64,000 nucleotides of DNA from an uncultured Pelagibacteraceae bacterium (GTDB taxonomy: Bacteria; Pseudomonadota; Alphaproteobacteria; Pelagibacterales; Pelagibacteraceae): NCBI GenBank assembly GCA_902519255.1, contig CABYIV010000001.1, positions 1 through 64,000 on the forward strand. Reading direction: 5' to 3'. The notes beneath the pieces were generated by a model. The model had not been told where the DNA came from. It made no database searches and was given only the letters and a program-made list of their open reading frames with translations. Position numbers and translations under genes: made by a program. Shown here piece by piece: positions 3,348 through 60,353 of the stretch (positions are counted from its first letter, which is position 1; the number at the start of each line of letters is the position of its first letter).

Positions 3348-3767
3348 TTACTTTTTTTTGATTCCGTATAGTTCTAATTTATGATCAACGAGCTTATAGC
3401 CATACTTATCAGCAATTTTTTTTTGTAATTCTTCGATATCCTCATCAACAAATTCAATTATTTCTCCAGTTTTAATATCTATCAGGTGATTATGATCATC
3501 ATTTAGCTCATATCTTGCTTTGCCAGACTTAAAATCATGCTTTGTTAAAATTCCAGCTTCCTCAAAAAGTTTGACTGTTCTATAAACTGTAGCAATACTA
3601 ATTTTAGAATCTATTTGAGAAACTCTGTTATATAATTCATCAACATCTGGGTGGTCAGATTCTCCATATGTCTTTTTGGACTCGGATATTACTCTTGCGA
3701 TTATCCTTCTTTGATCTGTAAGTTTTACTCCATTTTTTTGACATTTTTCTTCAATAGTTTCTAACAT
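3348..3767 (-). CDS. Fur-family transcriptional regulator
   Basis: LTDQRRIIARVI, ISIATVYRTVKLFEEAGIL, HNHLIDIKTGEIIEF. Confidence 0.93.
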   Translation of the reverse strand: MLETIEEKCQKNGVKLTDQRRIIARVISESKKTYGESDHPDVDELYNRVSQIDSKISIATVYRTVKLFEEAGILTKHDFKSGKARYELNDDHNHLIDIKTGEIIEFVDEDIEELQKKIADKYGYKLVDHKLELYGIKKK

Positions 3768-6269: not shown

Positions 6270-6812
6270 TTATACAGCTAAAACTTCTTTAACTTCAGGA
6301 ATATAATGACAAAGCAAGTTTTCTACACCTTTTTTTAAAGTAAGAGTTGAAGATGGACAGCCCGAACAACTACCTTTTAACAAAACTTTAACTTTTCCAT
6401 CCTTGAATTCTTGGAACTTTATATCTCCTCCATCTCTTGCAACTGCAGGTCTAATTTTAGAATCTAAAATACTTATTATTTTTTTTTCAATCTCTGAATA
6501 ATTATTGTTTTGCTCATCTTTATTTATTTTGTCTATAATGCAGGTATTACCATTTGCATAGTGCTCATTTACATAAGATATAACAATGTGTTGGATATCT
6601 TCCCATTTTTTATTCTCTTCTTTATTTATAGAAAAAAAATCTTCACCTAAAAATACTCCAATCACTCCATTTATTTGTAATAAGTTCTTTATCAATAAGT
6701 TATTTGTATCTTCCTGATTTAAAACCTCTAATGGACCATTATTAGAAACTTTTCTACCAGGTAGAAACTTTAATGAATTTGGGTTTGGTGTATTTTCTGT
6801 TTGTATAAACAT
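6270..6812 (-). CDS. NifU-family Fe-S scaffold (Nfu)
   Basis: N-terminal MFIQTENTPNPNSLKFLPG; C-terminal DGGDIKFQEF...LKGSCSGCPSSTLTLKKGVE. Confidence 0.93.
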   Translation of the reverse strand: MFIQTENTPNPNSLKFLPGRKVSNNGPLEVLNQEDTNNLLIKNLLQINGVIGVFLGEDFFSINKEENKKWEDIQHIVISYVNEHYANGNTCIIDKINKDEQNNNYSEIEKKIISILDSKIRPAVARDGGDIKFQEFKDGKVKVLLKGSCSGCPSSTLTLKKGVENLLCHYIPEVKEVLAV

Positions 6813-6849: not shown

Positions 6850-7851
6850 TTAAAAACCAACAATTTCTTTTATTTTTTTAACTTTTTTAGATGAAATATT
6901 CTCAGCTTTTGCTGCGCCATCCTCTAAAATTTGATCTATATAATTTTTATCTGACAATAATTTTTGTATTTCTTTTGATATAGGTGACAGTTTAGACACA
7001 ATTATTTCTGATAGTTTATCTTTTAAATCAGAGTAATTTTTTCCCTCAAATTCATTTAATGTATCTGTAATATTTTGATTACTTAAGCTAGAGTAAATAC
7101 CCATCAAATTTTCCGCTTCAGGTCTGCCTTTAAGACCATTTTCATTTCCAGGTAAAGTATCATTGTCTGTTTTTGCTTTTTTTATTTTGTTAATAATTTG
7201 ATCCTCATTATCTGTTAGATTGATCCTACTTCCTTCAGCAATATCTGACTTACTCATTTTTTTTGTGCCATCTTTCAAACTCATTATTCTTGAGAAATGT
7301 TTTTGTATTAGAGGCTCAGGAGGTCTTAGGAAATCTGGACATTTATATTCGTTATTAAATTTTTGAGCTATATCTCTACAGAGTTCTAGATGTTGTTTTT
7401 GATCATCTCCAACCGGTACATGAGTAGCATCATACAAAAGGATGTCGGAAGCCATAAGAACTGGATAAATATATAAACCAACGCTAGCTTTTTCCTTATC
7501 TTTTCCAGCTTTCTCTTTGAATTGTGTCATTCTATTGAGCCATCCCATTCTAGCAATACATCCCAATATCCAAGAACCCTCGGTGTGAGCTGGAACTAAA
7601 GATTGATTAAATATTATACTATTTTTTGGGTCAATACCGCTTGCGATAAACGCAGCTGCTGTCTCTCTAATATTATTTTTTAATTCTATTGGATCTTGCA
7701 TTACAGTAATGGCATGAAGATCAACAACGCAAAAAATGCAATTGTTATCTTTATTGTTTTGTAAATCGACAAAATTCTTTATTGCACCTATATAATTACC
7801 AAGATGCAAATTTCCTGTTGGTTGCACTCCAGAAAAAATTTTTTTAGACAT
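6850..7851 (-). CDS. trpS: Tryptophanyl-tRNA synthetase
   Basis: [18 protein letters not shown] and KKMSKSD class I signatures. Confidence 0.97.
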
Positions 7852-54208: not shown

Positions 54209-54361
54209 ATGATGCAAGGTTATATTAATTGGGAAAAAAAACAAATTCAGTGGTGGAAGAAAAAACTAGGACTTTCTGAACATGGACTTGCGTGGGTATC
54301 TTTTATAAAGGGAATTTTGGTTGGATTATTAATTTATCATTTCTTTTTTTTAGCAAAATAA
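54209..54361 (+). CDS. Small (50 aa) predicted single-TM protein after hisE
   Basis: ATG at 54209: MMQGYINWEKKQIQWWKKKLGLSEHGLAWVSFIKGILVGLLIYHFFFLAK*; 2 bp after the hisE stop; not in the ORF track. Confidence 0.6.
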   Translation: MMQGYINWEKKQIQWWKKKLGLSEHGLAWVSFIKGILVGLLIYHFFFLAK

Positions 54362-54372
54362 CAAACTTCATC

Positions 54373-54413
54373 AGAGCGCGGGACTCATAAGCCCGAGGTC
54401 AGTGGTTGAATAG
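54373..54413 (+). pseudogene. tRNA(CAU) fragment: anticodon arm plus degenerate variable/T-arm region, no 5' half
   Basis: agagcgcgggactCATaagcccgaggtcagtggttgaatagcc resembles tRNA positions ~22 to the T-loop with CTCATAA anticodon loop; acceptor stem and D-stem 5' side missing, T-arm not foldable. Confidence 0.7.
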
Positions 54414-54452
54414 CCTTAATACACAATCATTATTTGCAAACAATAAAATATT

Positions 54453-54470
54453 GATCACACATAGATCACA
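54453..54470 (+). repeat. GATCACA heptamer pair, left
   Basis: GATCACAcataGATCACA, 11-bp start-to-start spacing. Confidence 0.7.
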
Positions 54471-54489
54471 GTGATAGAGTCTGTCTGTC

Positions 54490-55728
54490 ATGAAAAATAA
54501 TTGGATCACAAAAATATTAAGCCTAATTGTTCTAATTATATTTTGTCCATATTCTGCAAATGCTGCAAAAATAATGAATAATAGTGACAACGTATTTACA
54601 ATTTCGTGTGAAGGTAAAATAAATTCTGTCAATAGTGGAAGCTGGGGTACCGAAACAACATCTGATAGATTTTCTGAAGATTTAAAAATTATAGCTTTAG
54701 ATAATAAAAAAATTTTTTCTGTAGAGATTGAGGATAGCACAGATTATTACGCAAGAGATATGATATATTTTTTTGGAGCAAATTTAAAAACTGTCTCAAA
54801 TGGAAAAACATTAATTATGAAATCCAAAGAAGTAGTATCTGATGATGGTGATTTAATAAGAAAAAATACAAAAATGAGGTTATCAATTACTAATGGCACT
54901 TATAATGGAGAATTCGATATTATATGGAAAGATGGATCAGCAAAAAGATTTAAAACAATTGATGCGGTATGTTCAGGCACCGATAGACTATTAGCATATA
55001 TAAATGAAGAAAAAGAAATAGATCCACTTCCAAAAATTAAAGATGAGGAAATAGTACCTGCATCTTCAGGTACAGGTTTTTTTGTATCAAAAAAGAGTCA
55101 TATCATAACAAATTTTCATGTGATTGACAGTTGCTCGAAAGTAAAAGCAGTAACTAAAGGCAATGAATATGATACAGAAATTTTAGCTGTAGATAAAGTA
55201 AATGATCTTGCAATTTTAAAAACAAATTTTGTGCCAAAAAAAGTTTTTTCAATTTCTGATGAAGATGGTCAACTTTTAGAAGAAGTGATTGTAGCAGGAT
55301 ATCCTTTGGGAAAAAAAATTAGCGCGTCAATTAAAGCCACTAGCGGAACAGTAACAGCTTTAGCTGGTTTAGGAGATAATTATGCAGAATTCCAAACAGA
55401 TGCTGCGTTAAACTCAGGTAACAGTGGAGGACCTATAATAAATGAGTATGGAAATGTTATAGGGGTCGCTGTTTCAAAAATTCAGCAAGAGGGAGTTGAA
55501 AGTTTCAATTTTGGAATTAAATCATCAGTCTTAAAAATATTTGCAAACGCAAATGGTTTGAAATTCTTCCCACCAAATAACAGGGAAATGAAAAAAAAAG
55601 ATTTAGGATCACTTATAACTGAAGCAACAATATATTTAGATTGTTGGATGACAGGTAAAGAAATAAAAAGACTAATCTCACAAAATCAAAAATCTCAGAA
55701 AGCTTTTTATAGTAAGTTTATTAATTAG
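54490..55728 (+). CDS. Trypsin-like (S1C/HtrA-type) serine protease without recognisable PDZ domain
   Basis: Signal peptide; ASSGTGFFVSKKSHIITNFHVIDSC (His), NDLAILKTN (Asp), QTDAALNSGNSGGPIINEYGNVIGVAVSK (Ser). Confidence 0.9.
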   Translation: MKNNWITKILSLIVLIIFCPYSANAAKIMNNSDNVFTISCEGKINSVNSGSWGTETTSDRFSEDLKIIALDNKKIFSVEIEDSTDYYARDMIYFFGANLKTVSNGKTLIMKSKEVVSDDGDLIRKNTKMRLSITNGTYNGEFDIIWKDGSAKRFKTIDAVCSGTDRLLAYINEEKEIDPLPKIKDEEIVPASSGTGFFVSKKSHIITNFHVIDSCSKVKAVTKGNEYDTEILAVDKVNDLAILKTNFVPKKVFSISDEDGQLLEEVIVAGYPLGKKISASIKATSGTVTALAGLGDNYAEFQTDAALNSGNSGGPIINEYGNVIGVAVSKIQQEGVESFNFGIKSSVLKIFANANGLKFFPPNNREMKKKDLGSLITEATIYLDCWMTGKEIKRLISQNQKSQKAFYSKFIN

Positions 55729-55765
55729 ACGCGGGACAAAGCTTAATTTTTACCTTTAAAAAAAG

Positions 55766-55783
55766 GATCACAATCTGATCACA
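55766..55783 (+). repeat. GATCACA heptamer pair, right
   Basis: GATCACAatctGATCACA, same 11-bp spacing as the left pair. Confidence 0.7.
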
Positions 55784-55854
55784 CTCAGGTTGGAAATTAC
55801 ATAAATCTTGTTTGCATCAAAAAATAAAAGTAGTATAAACCAACAATTATTTAC

Positions 55855-55897
55855 GGCGGGGTAGCTCAGTTGGTTAGAGCGCGGGACTCATAAGTCC
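55855..55897 (+). pseudogene. tRNA(CAU) 5' half: acceptor strand, D-arm, anticodon arm; 3' half missing
   Basis: GGCGGGGTAGCTCAGTTGGTTAGAGCGCGGGACTCATAAGTCC; no CCCCGCC acceptor complement downstream; shares 19 bp with 54373-54391. Confidence 0.85.
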
Positions 55898-55916
55898 AAG
55901 TTTAGCTTTTCTTCCC

Positions 55917-58813: not shown

Positions 58814-59317
58814 ATGAACCAAAAAGGTTTTACACTTATTGAACTTTTAGTCGTTGTGGCCATCATTGGTATCTTGGCAGCAGTTGGTGTTGTTGCTTAT
58901 AGTGGTTACACAACAGGTGCCAAAGCTTCTGCAACAAAATCTTGTTATCAATCAACCATAAAGTATATTGAAAGTGAATTATTGCTTTGTAGTATTGGAA
59001 ACACAACAGTAATGGATGGTCAATTGAGTTGCTCAGGATACAACACTCATACAGGCGCATTTAATACTATGCAGGCACTAGCTAATGTTAGATCCTTAAG
59101 AGGTTCAGTTACACCAGGTGTCGATGAGGGTGTTTTGAAATCATATAGAAATCCTTATGATACCTCACTTCCTTGCATAAGATCAAGAACAGGTTTTACT
59201 GCAGGTCAAGTGAGTATAGCTGTAAATAATACAACGTTGCAAATTAGGGCATGTTTCAAAGAAAGTTGTAACGGCAGCAATATAGCTAGTAAAGATATAG
59301 ATGTGAGTAAGAAATAA
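58814..59317 (+). CDS. Type IV pilin-like protein 1
   Basis: Class III leader MNQKG^FTLIELLVVVAIIGILAAVGVVAYSGYTTGAK. Confidence 0.95.
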   Translation: MNQKGFTLIELLVVVAIIGILAAVGVVAYSGYTTGAKASATKSCYQSTIKYIESELLLCSIGNTTVMDGQLSCSGYNTHTGAFNTMQALANVRSLRGSVTPGVDEGVLKSYRNPYDTSLPCIRSRTGFTAGQVSIAVNNTTLQIRACFKESCNGSNIASKDIDVSKK

Positions 59318-59322
59318 TATTA

Positions 59323-59808
59323 ATGTTAAAACAAAATGGTTTTACACTTATTGAACTTTTAGTTGTAGTAGCAATAATCGGTATATTGGCGGCAGTAGGT
59401 GTTGTTGCATACAGCGGATATACTTCTGGTGCAAAGAAATCTGCAGCCAAGTCTAATCATAACGCTATTGTTAAATATATTATGAGTGAATCAATGAAAT
59501 GTTCGTTGGGTGAAGCTAATGCAATGAGTGGTGAATTAGATTGTTCAAAACAAAGCCAAGCTGATTGGAAAGATGTTGTAGCAAAAGCAACAGAAAAGGC
59601 ACTTGTTGATTTTAAAAATCCATACAATAGCTCAGAAAAAGCAGTAACTCACGGGGGAGGTGTTTCAAACGACACTGATGTTGGATTTAATAGAATGAGG
59701 TCACCTGGAACCACTATTAAAGTTATGACGTGTATCACAACTCCTTGTACAGGAACCATGTGTACCGTTCCAAATCATCTTTGTAGTAAAGATATAACAA
59801 TTAAATAA
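59323..59808 (+). CDS. Type IV pilin-like protein 2
   Basis: MLKQNG^FTLIELLVVVAIIGILAAVGVVAYSGYTSGAK. Confidence 0.95.
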   Translation: MLKQNGFTLIELLVVVAIIGILAAVGVVAYSGYTSGAKKSAAKSNHNAIVKYIMSESMKCSLGEANAMSGELDCSKQSQADWKDVVAKATEKALVDFKNPYNSSEKAVTHGGGVSNDTDVGFNRMRSPGTTIKVMTCITTPCTGTMCTVPNHLCSKDITIK

Positions 59809-60353
59809 TGAAACAAAAAGGTTTCACTTTAATTGAATTACTTGTTGTTGTAGCAATTATTGGTATTTTAGCTGCAGTAGGTGTTGTTGCGTACAGCGGT
59901 TATACTAAAGGCGCAAAGCAAAATGTATTAAAATCAAATTTTGCAAATATTGAAAAAAAAATCAAATTAGCAGCAACAGGTTGTTTTAGTGGAATTGAAA
60001 TAAAATTTGGCCCATATCAAGATGGAAGATCACCAAATACTCATACATGCAATACTCCTGGCTTTTCTAGCAATATGTTAAGCGCTGACTCAATTACATA
60101 TAAATTGTACTTAGAAAATTTTGGTATGAAAAACCCTATTAACAGCTCTCAACTTGGAATAAATTGGAGTAATGGAACTTGTCCACCTCAAAGTGTTGCT
60201 CAAGGTCAAATAGTTATGGGATATGCACACAAAAATAATACATGCGGAATGGCTGGTAATATGTCTTGCCTTAAAGTAAATTTAGGTGATATCGATGGAA
60301 ATGGATCAGATGATTTTATATCTGAAGAAATTAATTTTTGTGATTTTAGATAA
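59808..60353 (+). CDS. Type IV pilin-like protein 3
   Basis: MKQKG^FTLIELLVVVAIIGILAAVGVVAYSGYTKGAK; C-terminal DIDGNGSDDF. Confidence 0.95.
   Translation: MKQKGFTLIELLVVVAIIGILAAVGVVAYSGYTKGAKQNVLKSNFANIEKKIKLAATGCFSGIEIKFGPYQDGRSPNTHTCNTPGFSSNMLSADSITYKLYLENFGMKNPINSSQLGINWSNGTCPPQSVAQGQIVMGYAHKNNTCGMAGNMSCLKVNLGDIDGNGSDDFISEEINFCDFR

Follow-up and report, generated by a model that had tools for sequence, protein, structure and literature searches.

A protease gene between two tRNA-Met pieces

The window, by which we mean the whole 64,000-nucleotide stretch analysed here (positions 1 to 64,000 of contig CABYIV010000001.1, from an uncultured Pelagibacteraceae bacterium), carries between hisE and a TRAP transporter operon a single protease gene bracketed by two incomplete pieces of a tRNA(CAU) gene (Table 1). 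An earlier note on this DNA had placed these pieces at 54373 and 55855 with a 19-bp core in common, and both points are confirmed by the 19-mer AGAGCGCGGGACTCATAAG, present in each. When the 1.07-Mb genome to which the window belongs was searched with up to two mismatches permitted, the 19-mer was found three times, exactly in every case: in the two pieces and in the one intact tRNA-Met gene (C4:26302-26378), which lies on a contig other than the window's and is the kind of intact copy that the note had proposed to look for elsewhere in the genome; the reversed pattern gave no match there. The name tRNA-Met follows an ARAGORN call (CAT), which does not separate the elongator Met and Ile2 types. 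Neither piece is a tRNA, with none called by ARAGORN across the whole window and none by Rfam between 40 and 64 kb, even at E<=5. An Rfam lncRNA match in the window was rejected as chance.

The extent of both pieces differs from what had been described. The left one is real, and identical to the intact tRNA for 35 bp (54373-54407), but it is unrelated beyond that point and does not reach 54413. The right one is indeed a 5' half, yet it holds more than parts of the tRNA: its match to the intact locus begins ~50 bp upstream, within the promoter region, such that about 55803-55900 is 91% identical to G000:C4:26249-26347 (mostly 91-98% against the upstream region and 5' half of intact tRNA-Met loci in the closest genomes), and diverges from the tRNA after CATAAG. 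The mismatching G after CATAA, taken previously as a sign of the common descent of the pieces, is native to the tRNA and not damage, since the intact tRNA-Met carries the same G within CTCATAAGCCCG; it is uninformative on shared decay.

Table 1. Coordinates of the cassette, its ends and its flanks in the window, with the two pilin-joining cores of G146.
Feature	Position	Strand	Remarks
Host left flank of attachment site (...aataacaaacttcatc)	54346..54372		near-identical beside the solo core of G109/G392
Left 25-bp core (attL core), tRNA-Met anticodon arm, AGAGCGCGGGACTCATAAGCCCGAG	54373..54397	+	identical in the intact tRNA, the G109/G392 solo cores and both G011 cores
Element-borne tRNA 3' side (GTCAGTGGTT), 10 bp, then divergence from tRNA	54398..54407	+	35-bp exact tRNA match in all
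Left arm-type repeat 1, GATCACA, +74 from core (CGGGACTCATAAG)	54453..54459	+	same offset in GATCACA elements checked and G210
Left arm-type repeat 2, GATCACA, +85	54464..54470	+	same offset in elements checked and G210
Third left repeat, GATCACA, +125, within cargo codons (MKNNWIT)	54504..54510	+	same offset in other GATCACA cassettes; missing in G210
Cargo gene, 412 aa, N-terminal signal-like segment and trypsin-like peptidase domain	54490..55728	+	PF13365, E=3e-26
Right-end motif TAGACGCGGGACA, conserved, gives stop codon	55726..55738	+	same position in most other GATCACA cassettes
Right arm-type repeats, GATCACA	55766-55772, 55777-55783	+	-116 and -105 from right core; same offsets in G100, G329
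Copied tRNA-Met upstream/promoter region	55803..55854	+	part of the 55803-55900 match to intact loci
Element-carried tRNA-Met 5' half (acceptor 5' strand, D-loop)	55855..55875	+	same half rebuilds the intact tRNA in tRNA-inserted relatives
Right core (attR core) AGAGCGCGGGACTCATAAGTCCAAG	55876..55900	+	two substitutions past CATAAG; G011, G109, G392 read CCCGAG
Host right flank (tttagcttttcttccc), running into TRAP transporter gene	55901..55916		identical in G109/G392 empty sites
G146 pilin-joining cores	L233 (G146:C2:43000-55000) position 6344; L234 (G146:C21:1-9000) position 3462	L233 minus	tRNA core and left-end-like sequence

Empty sites and the solo core

In two relatives (G109, G392), hisE is followed by a small ORF, aataacaaacttcatc, one core AGAGCGCGGGACTCATAAGCCCGAG, tttagcttttcttccc and the TRAP operon, with flanks near-identical to the window's and the protease absent: this is the product expected from recombination between the window's two cores. 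The earlier reading of a footprint of site-specific integration at a tRNA attachment site is upheld by these empty sites, and the arrangement is clearly not fixed in all relatives. The comparison downstream of hisE that the note had proposed does reveal an empty site, though it holds a solo core (G109 and G392, among the relatives examined) rather than the intact tRNA that had been anticipated. Nor does the order of the pieces call for repeated events, as had been supposed; if an element bearing the promoter and 5' half of the tRNA enters a solo 25-bp core just once, the 3' piece comes to lie before the 5' piece, as the empty sites indicate.

We therefore hold with considerable confidence that 54373-55900 is a ~1.5-kb, non-autonomous integrative cassette bearing a protease, the two pieces being its attL and attR. 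The protease is its single gene; an integrase of its own is absent, and PF00589 found none in the genome to which the window belongs (84% complete).

Other relatives vary at this site. G010 has the small ORF and no cassette, whilst G011 is without the small ORF and holds the window's cassette at this position; to judge from its sequence, the left flank of G011 could be derived through a deletion between two AAATAA repeats. The small ORF of the window (54210-54362) matches that of G109/G392 at 99% identity, though hisE is 94% identical; it is 87% identical in G010 and missing from G011 and G018. Further downstream (58814-60353), three tandem pilin-like genes share a near-identical N-terminus (GFTLIELLVVVAIIGILAAVGVVAYSGYT), and their copy number seems variable among relatives.

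Where the 25-bp solo core at hisE came from is left unexplained by the cassette model. A tRNA-Met gene that once stood at hisE, decayed and was split by an insertion into the two present pieces could be its source, and on inspection the right flank of G011 (CCCGAGTTCAGCTTTTC...) is loosely like a tRNA 3' side. Against this, the empty sites hold the 25-bp core alone, with no recognisable 5' half, and the 5' half and promoter belong to the right end of the element, as they do in other cassettes; we consider such a decayed gene unlikely.

Evidence that the cassette moved independently of its flanks

Comparison of the window with G011 bears directly on movement of the cassette. Divergence amounts to 8.1-8.9% in hisF, hisE and the TRAP genes and to 0.16% in the protease (2/1239 sites), with no substitutions in the right end as far as the core and one single-base gap; it resumes at 54368, just outside the left core, and at 55895, inside the right core. 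SAR11 bacteria recombine often, and the two copies do lie at the same locus, such that the cassette could have passed between the window's genome and G011 by homologous recombination through the flanking genes rather than site-specifically. Such exchange is disfavoured because the low divergence ends at the cores on both sides, the flanks being 8-9% divergent right up to them, and the same ends are found at tRNA-Met loci elsewhere; we judge it distinctly improbable.

The cassette is also the only thing that the cores enclose. The earlier note had taken the pieces to mark the entry to a larger island (protease, TRAP transporter and pilins) built by repeated integration and excision, and the spacing between hisE and the HIT gene does vary: HIT directly follows hisE in G012, and ~6.5 kb separate them in the window. 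Yet the sole core pair spans 1.5 kb, the empty sites retain the TRAP genes and are missing the cassette alone, and in G018 the TRAP and pilin genes adjoin hisE with the core absent, so that an island of this size is very improbable and the pieces do not mark its entry.

A family of cassettes at tRNA-Met

The single-gene cassette proposed above has relatives with the same ends and different cargo, which lie within tRNA-Met itself in seven Pelagibacter genomes (G265, G329, G391, G100, AH-287-G19, AG-337-E19 and AG-916-P21). In all seven, the right end makes a complete tRNA-Met in which the promoter and 5' half of the element are joined to the 3' half of the host, and the host 5' half remains upstream as a displaced fragment. 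The window copy, by contrast, sits in the solo core at hisE and forms no tRNA. The host tRNA of AG-916-P21 has a compensatory variant (GCGCAGG...CCTGAG), with GCGCAGG...CCCGAG at its left junction, which would locate the exchange of strands in GGACTCATAAGCC, a segment made up of the anticodon loop and its margins. AG-337-E19 has a second right end directly upstream, and we read it as two such cassettes in tandem, apparently by accretion.

How common are such elements? In a genus sample of one genome per species, most of them incomplete assemblies of uncultured cells, both ends were present in 6 of 399 genomes and the exact 22-bp core pattern in 249/399, with no matches to the control for this pattern among those listed. 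A degenerate arm pattern found 13 loci in a 257-Gb genome collection, all in Pelagibacteraceae assemblies; arm matches in G407 (an ordinary tRNA locus) and G403 (core absent) were weak and judged to be noise. Two or three copies of the core occur in 30 genomes, mostly on the same strand and 0.9-6.7 kb apart, and most of the multi-core elements examined are of the 5'-restoring type, the ordinary 3'-restoring type being seen in G020, G183, G300, G270, G124, G132 and G232. Chimeric assembly of amplified single-cell DNA, conceivable since the related public records are assemblies of uncultured cells, is hardly credible given matching junctions in independent genomes and consistent geometry over >20 elements, including a related cassette in the one-contig, 1.2-Mb genome G321.

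Several loci depart from the standard form. A left end fused to the tRNA right end with zero cargo was seen in L092 (G244; 6598-6804, minus strand) and L190 (AG-915-O08), apparently a deletion derivative common to two genomes. In L236 (G396:C3:68000-74086), a minus-strand core at 1524 is accompanied by a decayed tRNA 5' half and left end, a small lipoprotein-like gene and the truncated N-terminus of an integrase; this is probably a dead relative that bore an integrase. In G146, at each of two separate loci, a pair of type IV pilin-like genes is linked by a core with left-end-like sequence; the upstream pilin has its stop codon inside this core (GAT-TAG-AGCG), and no second core was found nearby. 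These two extra cores are not explained by the mechanism that we propose below.

Arm repeats and candidate helper integrases

Left-end GATCACA repeats stand at +74/+85 in all GATCACA elements checked, one of the repeats being degenerate in G265; the cassettes among them add a third left copy at +125 and, at the right end, one or two near -116 and -105. Most cassettes contain 5-6 copies of GATCAC (3 in G265, 4 in AG-337-E19) against shuffle means of 0.13-0.28. Their position and number suggest that GATCACA repeats are putative integrase arm sites.

The repeats point to a possible source of the integrase. A 5.5-kb element in G210, with GATCACA at +74/+85 and many right-end copies (9 of GATCAC in all, against a shuffle mean of 1.2), encodes a 329-aa PF00589 integrase that begins just past the left arms, as well as an AAA_25 ATPase weakly similar to phage primases. 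Because the same repeats lie at the same distances, an element of the G210 type is a probable helper, supplying the integrase in trans. The evidence for a GATCACA-type helper is this one element, and in no sampled genome was a G210-like GATCACA helper seen together with a GATCACA cassette.

Other arm types follow the same plan. G245 has a PF00589 integrase at its left end, 71% identical to that of G210, and arms of GGGCACA at +74/+85; these two elements measure 4.5-5.5 kb and pair the integrase with an ATPase/primase-like gene. Cassettes devoid of integrase carry GGTCCAC (G276, G147, G008, G321, G402, also G036, G179 and G386) or TGAC[AT]CA or GCTCCA (G215, G020, G183, G300, G270), such that four arm types besides GATCACA hold the 73-74/84-85 spacing. 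The more distant G412 differs, with arms at +103/+114; its tRNA-Met element (L179) is 6.7 kb long, with an integrase at the right end and a type I restriction-modification set. A common core with type-specific arms at fixed spacing would be expected if related integrases each served passengers of their own.

G210-like integrases occur in 18 genus genomes, beside tRNA-Met in 7, tmRNA in 2 and tRNA-Leu in 1, whilst most genus PF00589 matches are probably of the Xer type, judging from their size (~325 aa). In L183 (AG-439-E07), GATCACA arms (minus strand, at 7034) lie beside the end of an apparent tmRNA gene, and such arms may also serve a different target. IMG/VR viral contigs gave no match to the arm pattern and no relatives of the G210 integrase, which shares only ~31% identity with GenBank phage proteins. 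A pelagiphage attP as the origin was rejected, the tRNA having no near match in GenBank phages, as was a jumbo-phage origin of the core, since both IMG/VR matches are ordinary phage tRNAs in the tRNA clusters of large phage contigs.

Cargo

In several cassettes, the start codon (ATGAAAAATAATTGGATCACA) comes from the conserved left end, and the stop codon from the right-end motif (TAGACGCGGGACA, which looks like a degenerate core and is likewise conserved). A PDZ/trypsin-like protein is the cargo of G100 and, by sequence similarity, G270 carries a third trypsin-like protein. Other cargo comprises a restriction-helicase-like protein (G321), an HNH-like protein (G008) and, in the integrase-bearing G412, the type I restriction set. 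Among these proteins, the likeness to defence RT-protease models, in their protease portion, is probably at the level of the fold only.

In the minus-strand element of L096 (G276:C2:1-12000), a promoter-like leader, TTGGTCCACTGGTGGTCCACTGATAAAGT, recurs slightly altered ahead of several internal genes, as if several single-gene cassettes had fused. Many cargo ORFs of L089, L088, L090, L107 and L098 begin with near-same signal-peptide DNA (MKKLLGIVVLxLL), which may represent an exchange point.

A model for cassette movement

Taking the ends, arms and empty sites together, we infer that a helper tyrosine integrase would bind the GATCACA arms, excise the cassette and join it into a circle. The attP of this circle would consist of the tRNA-Met promoter and 5' half, the 25-bp core and the first part of the 3' side, flanked left and right by GATCACA arms, and the integrase, acting in trans, would recombine its core with a chromosomal one, strand exchange presumably taking place in the anticodon-loop part. 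The usual target would be the anticodon arm of tRNA-Met, where the host 3' half would be joined to a fresh promoter and 5' half from the right end of the element; the tRNA would thus be preserved, with its former 5' half remaining upstream as a fragment. In the window, the target would have been the solo 25-bp core between hisE and the TRAP operon, which is not a tRNA, so that neither end makes one. A vehicle for transfer, and a role for the protease, are likewise presumed.

Perhaps a broader economy of cassettes operates in SAR11, a picture we offer tentatively, as conceivable rather than probable: standard shells, with a promoter and start codon at one end and a stop codon and tRNA-repair half at the other, between which single cargo genes are swapped, and which could be moved in trans by several integrase types with different arms but one tRNA-Met core, landing also at solo cores such as those at hisE and in pilin arrays.

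Relation to known mobile elements

The cassette shows several features of tRNA-targeted integrative elements, namely a direct-repeat core at both ends, an empty site and arm-type repeats flanking the core. The window copy lacks insertion in a rebuilt tRNA gene and an integrase of its own, both of which are seen among relatives, the former in the tRNA-Met insertions and the latter in G210, G245 and G412. The 5'-fragment class of tRNA-fragment islands in the Islander catalogue is alike in its anticodon-arm core, tyrosine integrase, and rebuilt tRNA and displaced fragment at the ends (PMC4383910). That catalogue retains only integrase-bearing islands, whereas most elements here are integrase-less and carry one to a few genes; its 5'-fragment class is rare (159 islands, against 3760 with a 3' fragment) and yet is the more frequent of the two among the elements examined here, and the window copy, unlike the Islander islands, lies outside any tRNA. 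It is said of recombinant bacterial tRNA genes that, bar very few exceptions, they retain the promoter they had originally (PMC8371274). The pTN3-like elements, which also integrate in the tRNA 5' half, are archaeal, much larger and equipped with their own integrase (PMC8371274).

CIMEs, described as decayed ICEs or IMEs mobilised in cis after accretion (PMC5704250), resemble the cassette in retaining attL and attR, functional-looking sites, whilst integration and transfer genes are absent, and in tandem accretion (AG-337-E19). The cassettes differ in their standard ends, varied cargo and many insertions, which point to mobility in trans. As regards an origin by decay, no conjugation remnants were seen in the cassette (ORFs, domain search), and the relative that shares its ends, G210, is an integrase/ATPase element. 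CALINs and MITEs are similarly recombinase-less units moved in trans by a helper (PMC11389934); here, by contrast, the ends are a tRNA core and arm repeats and the target is a tRNA gene or solo core. As for an integron cassette with its attC, the tRNA core accounts for the ends.

The tycheposons of Prochlorococcus and Methylophilaceae, as far as the available description goes, are alike in their marine streamlined hosts, tRNA-Met border, tyrosine recombinase and cargo (PMC10872708). They are described there as 4-200 kb long with a recombinase, unlike the cassettes, which span ~0.9-4 kb (1.5 kb in the window) and are recombinase-less; by the same description, G210 and G245 stand nearer to tycheposons. 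Small elements of the G210/G245 type, with an integrase and primase/ATPase, could also be phage satellites (PICI, PICMI, VEIME) that give integrase as well, though no capsid, packaging or helper-phage link was found, and IMG/VR yielded neither an arm-pattern nor an integrase match.

Implications for SAR11

The streamlined genomes of SAR11 are often described as poor in mobile elements, and how these bacteria gain accessory genes is an open question. Integrase-less cassettes of ~1-4 kb at tRNA-Met offer a concrete and testable route and, in a bacterial group that ranks among the most abundant in the sea, expose a small system for swapping genes. The fixed arm geometry common to cassettes and integrase-bearing elements makes mobilisation in trans testable and, because some of the cargo resembles restriction or defence proteins, the system may bear on phage resistance.
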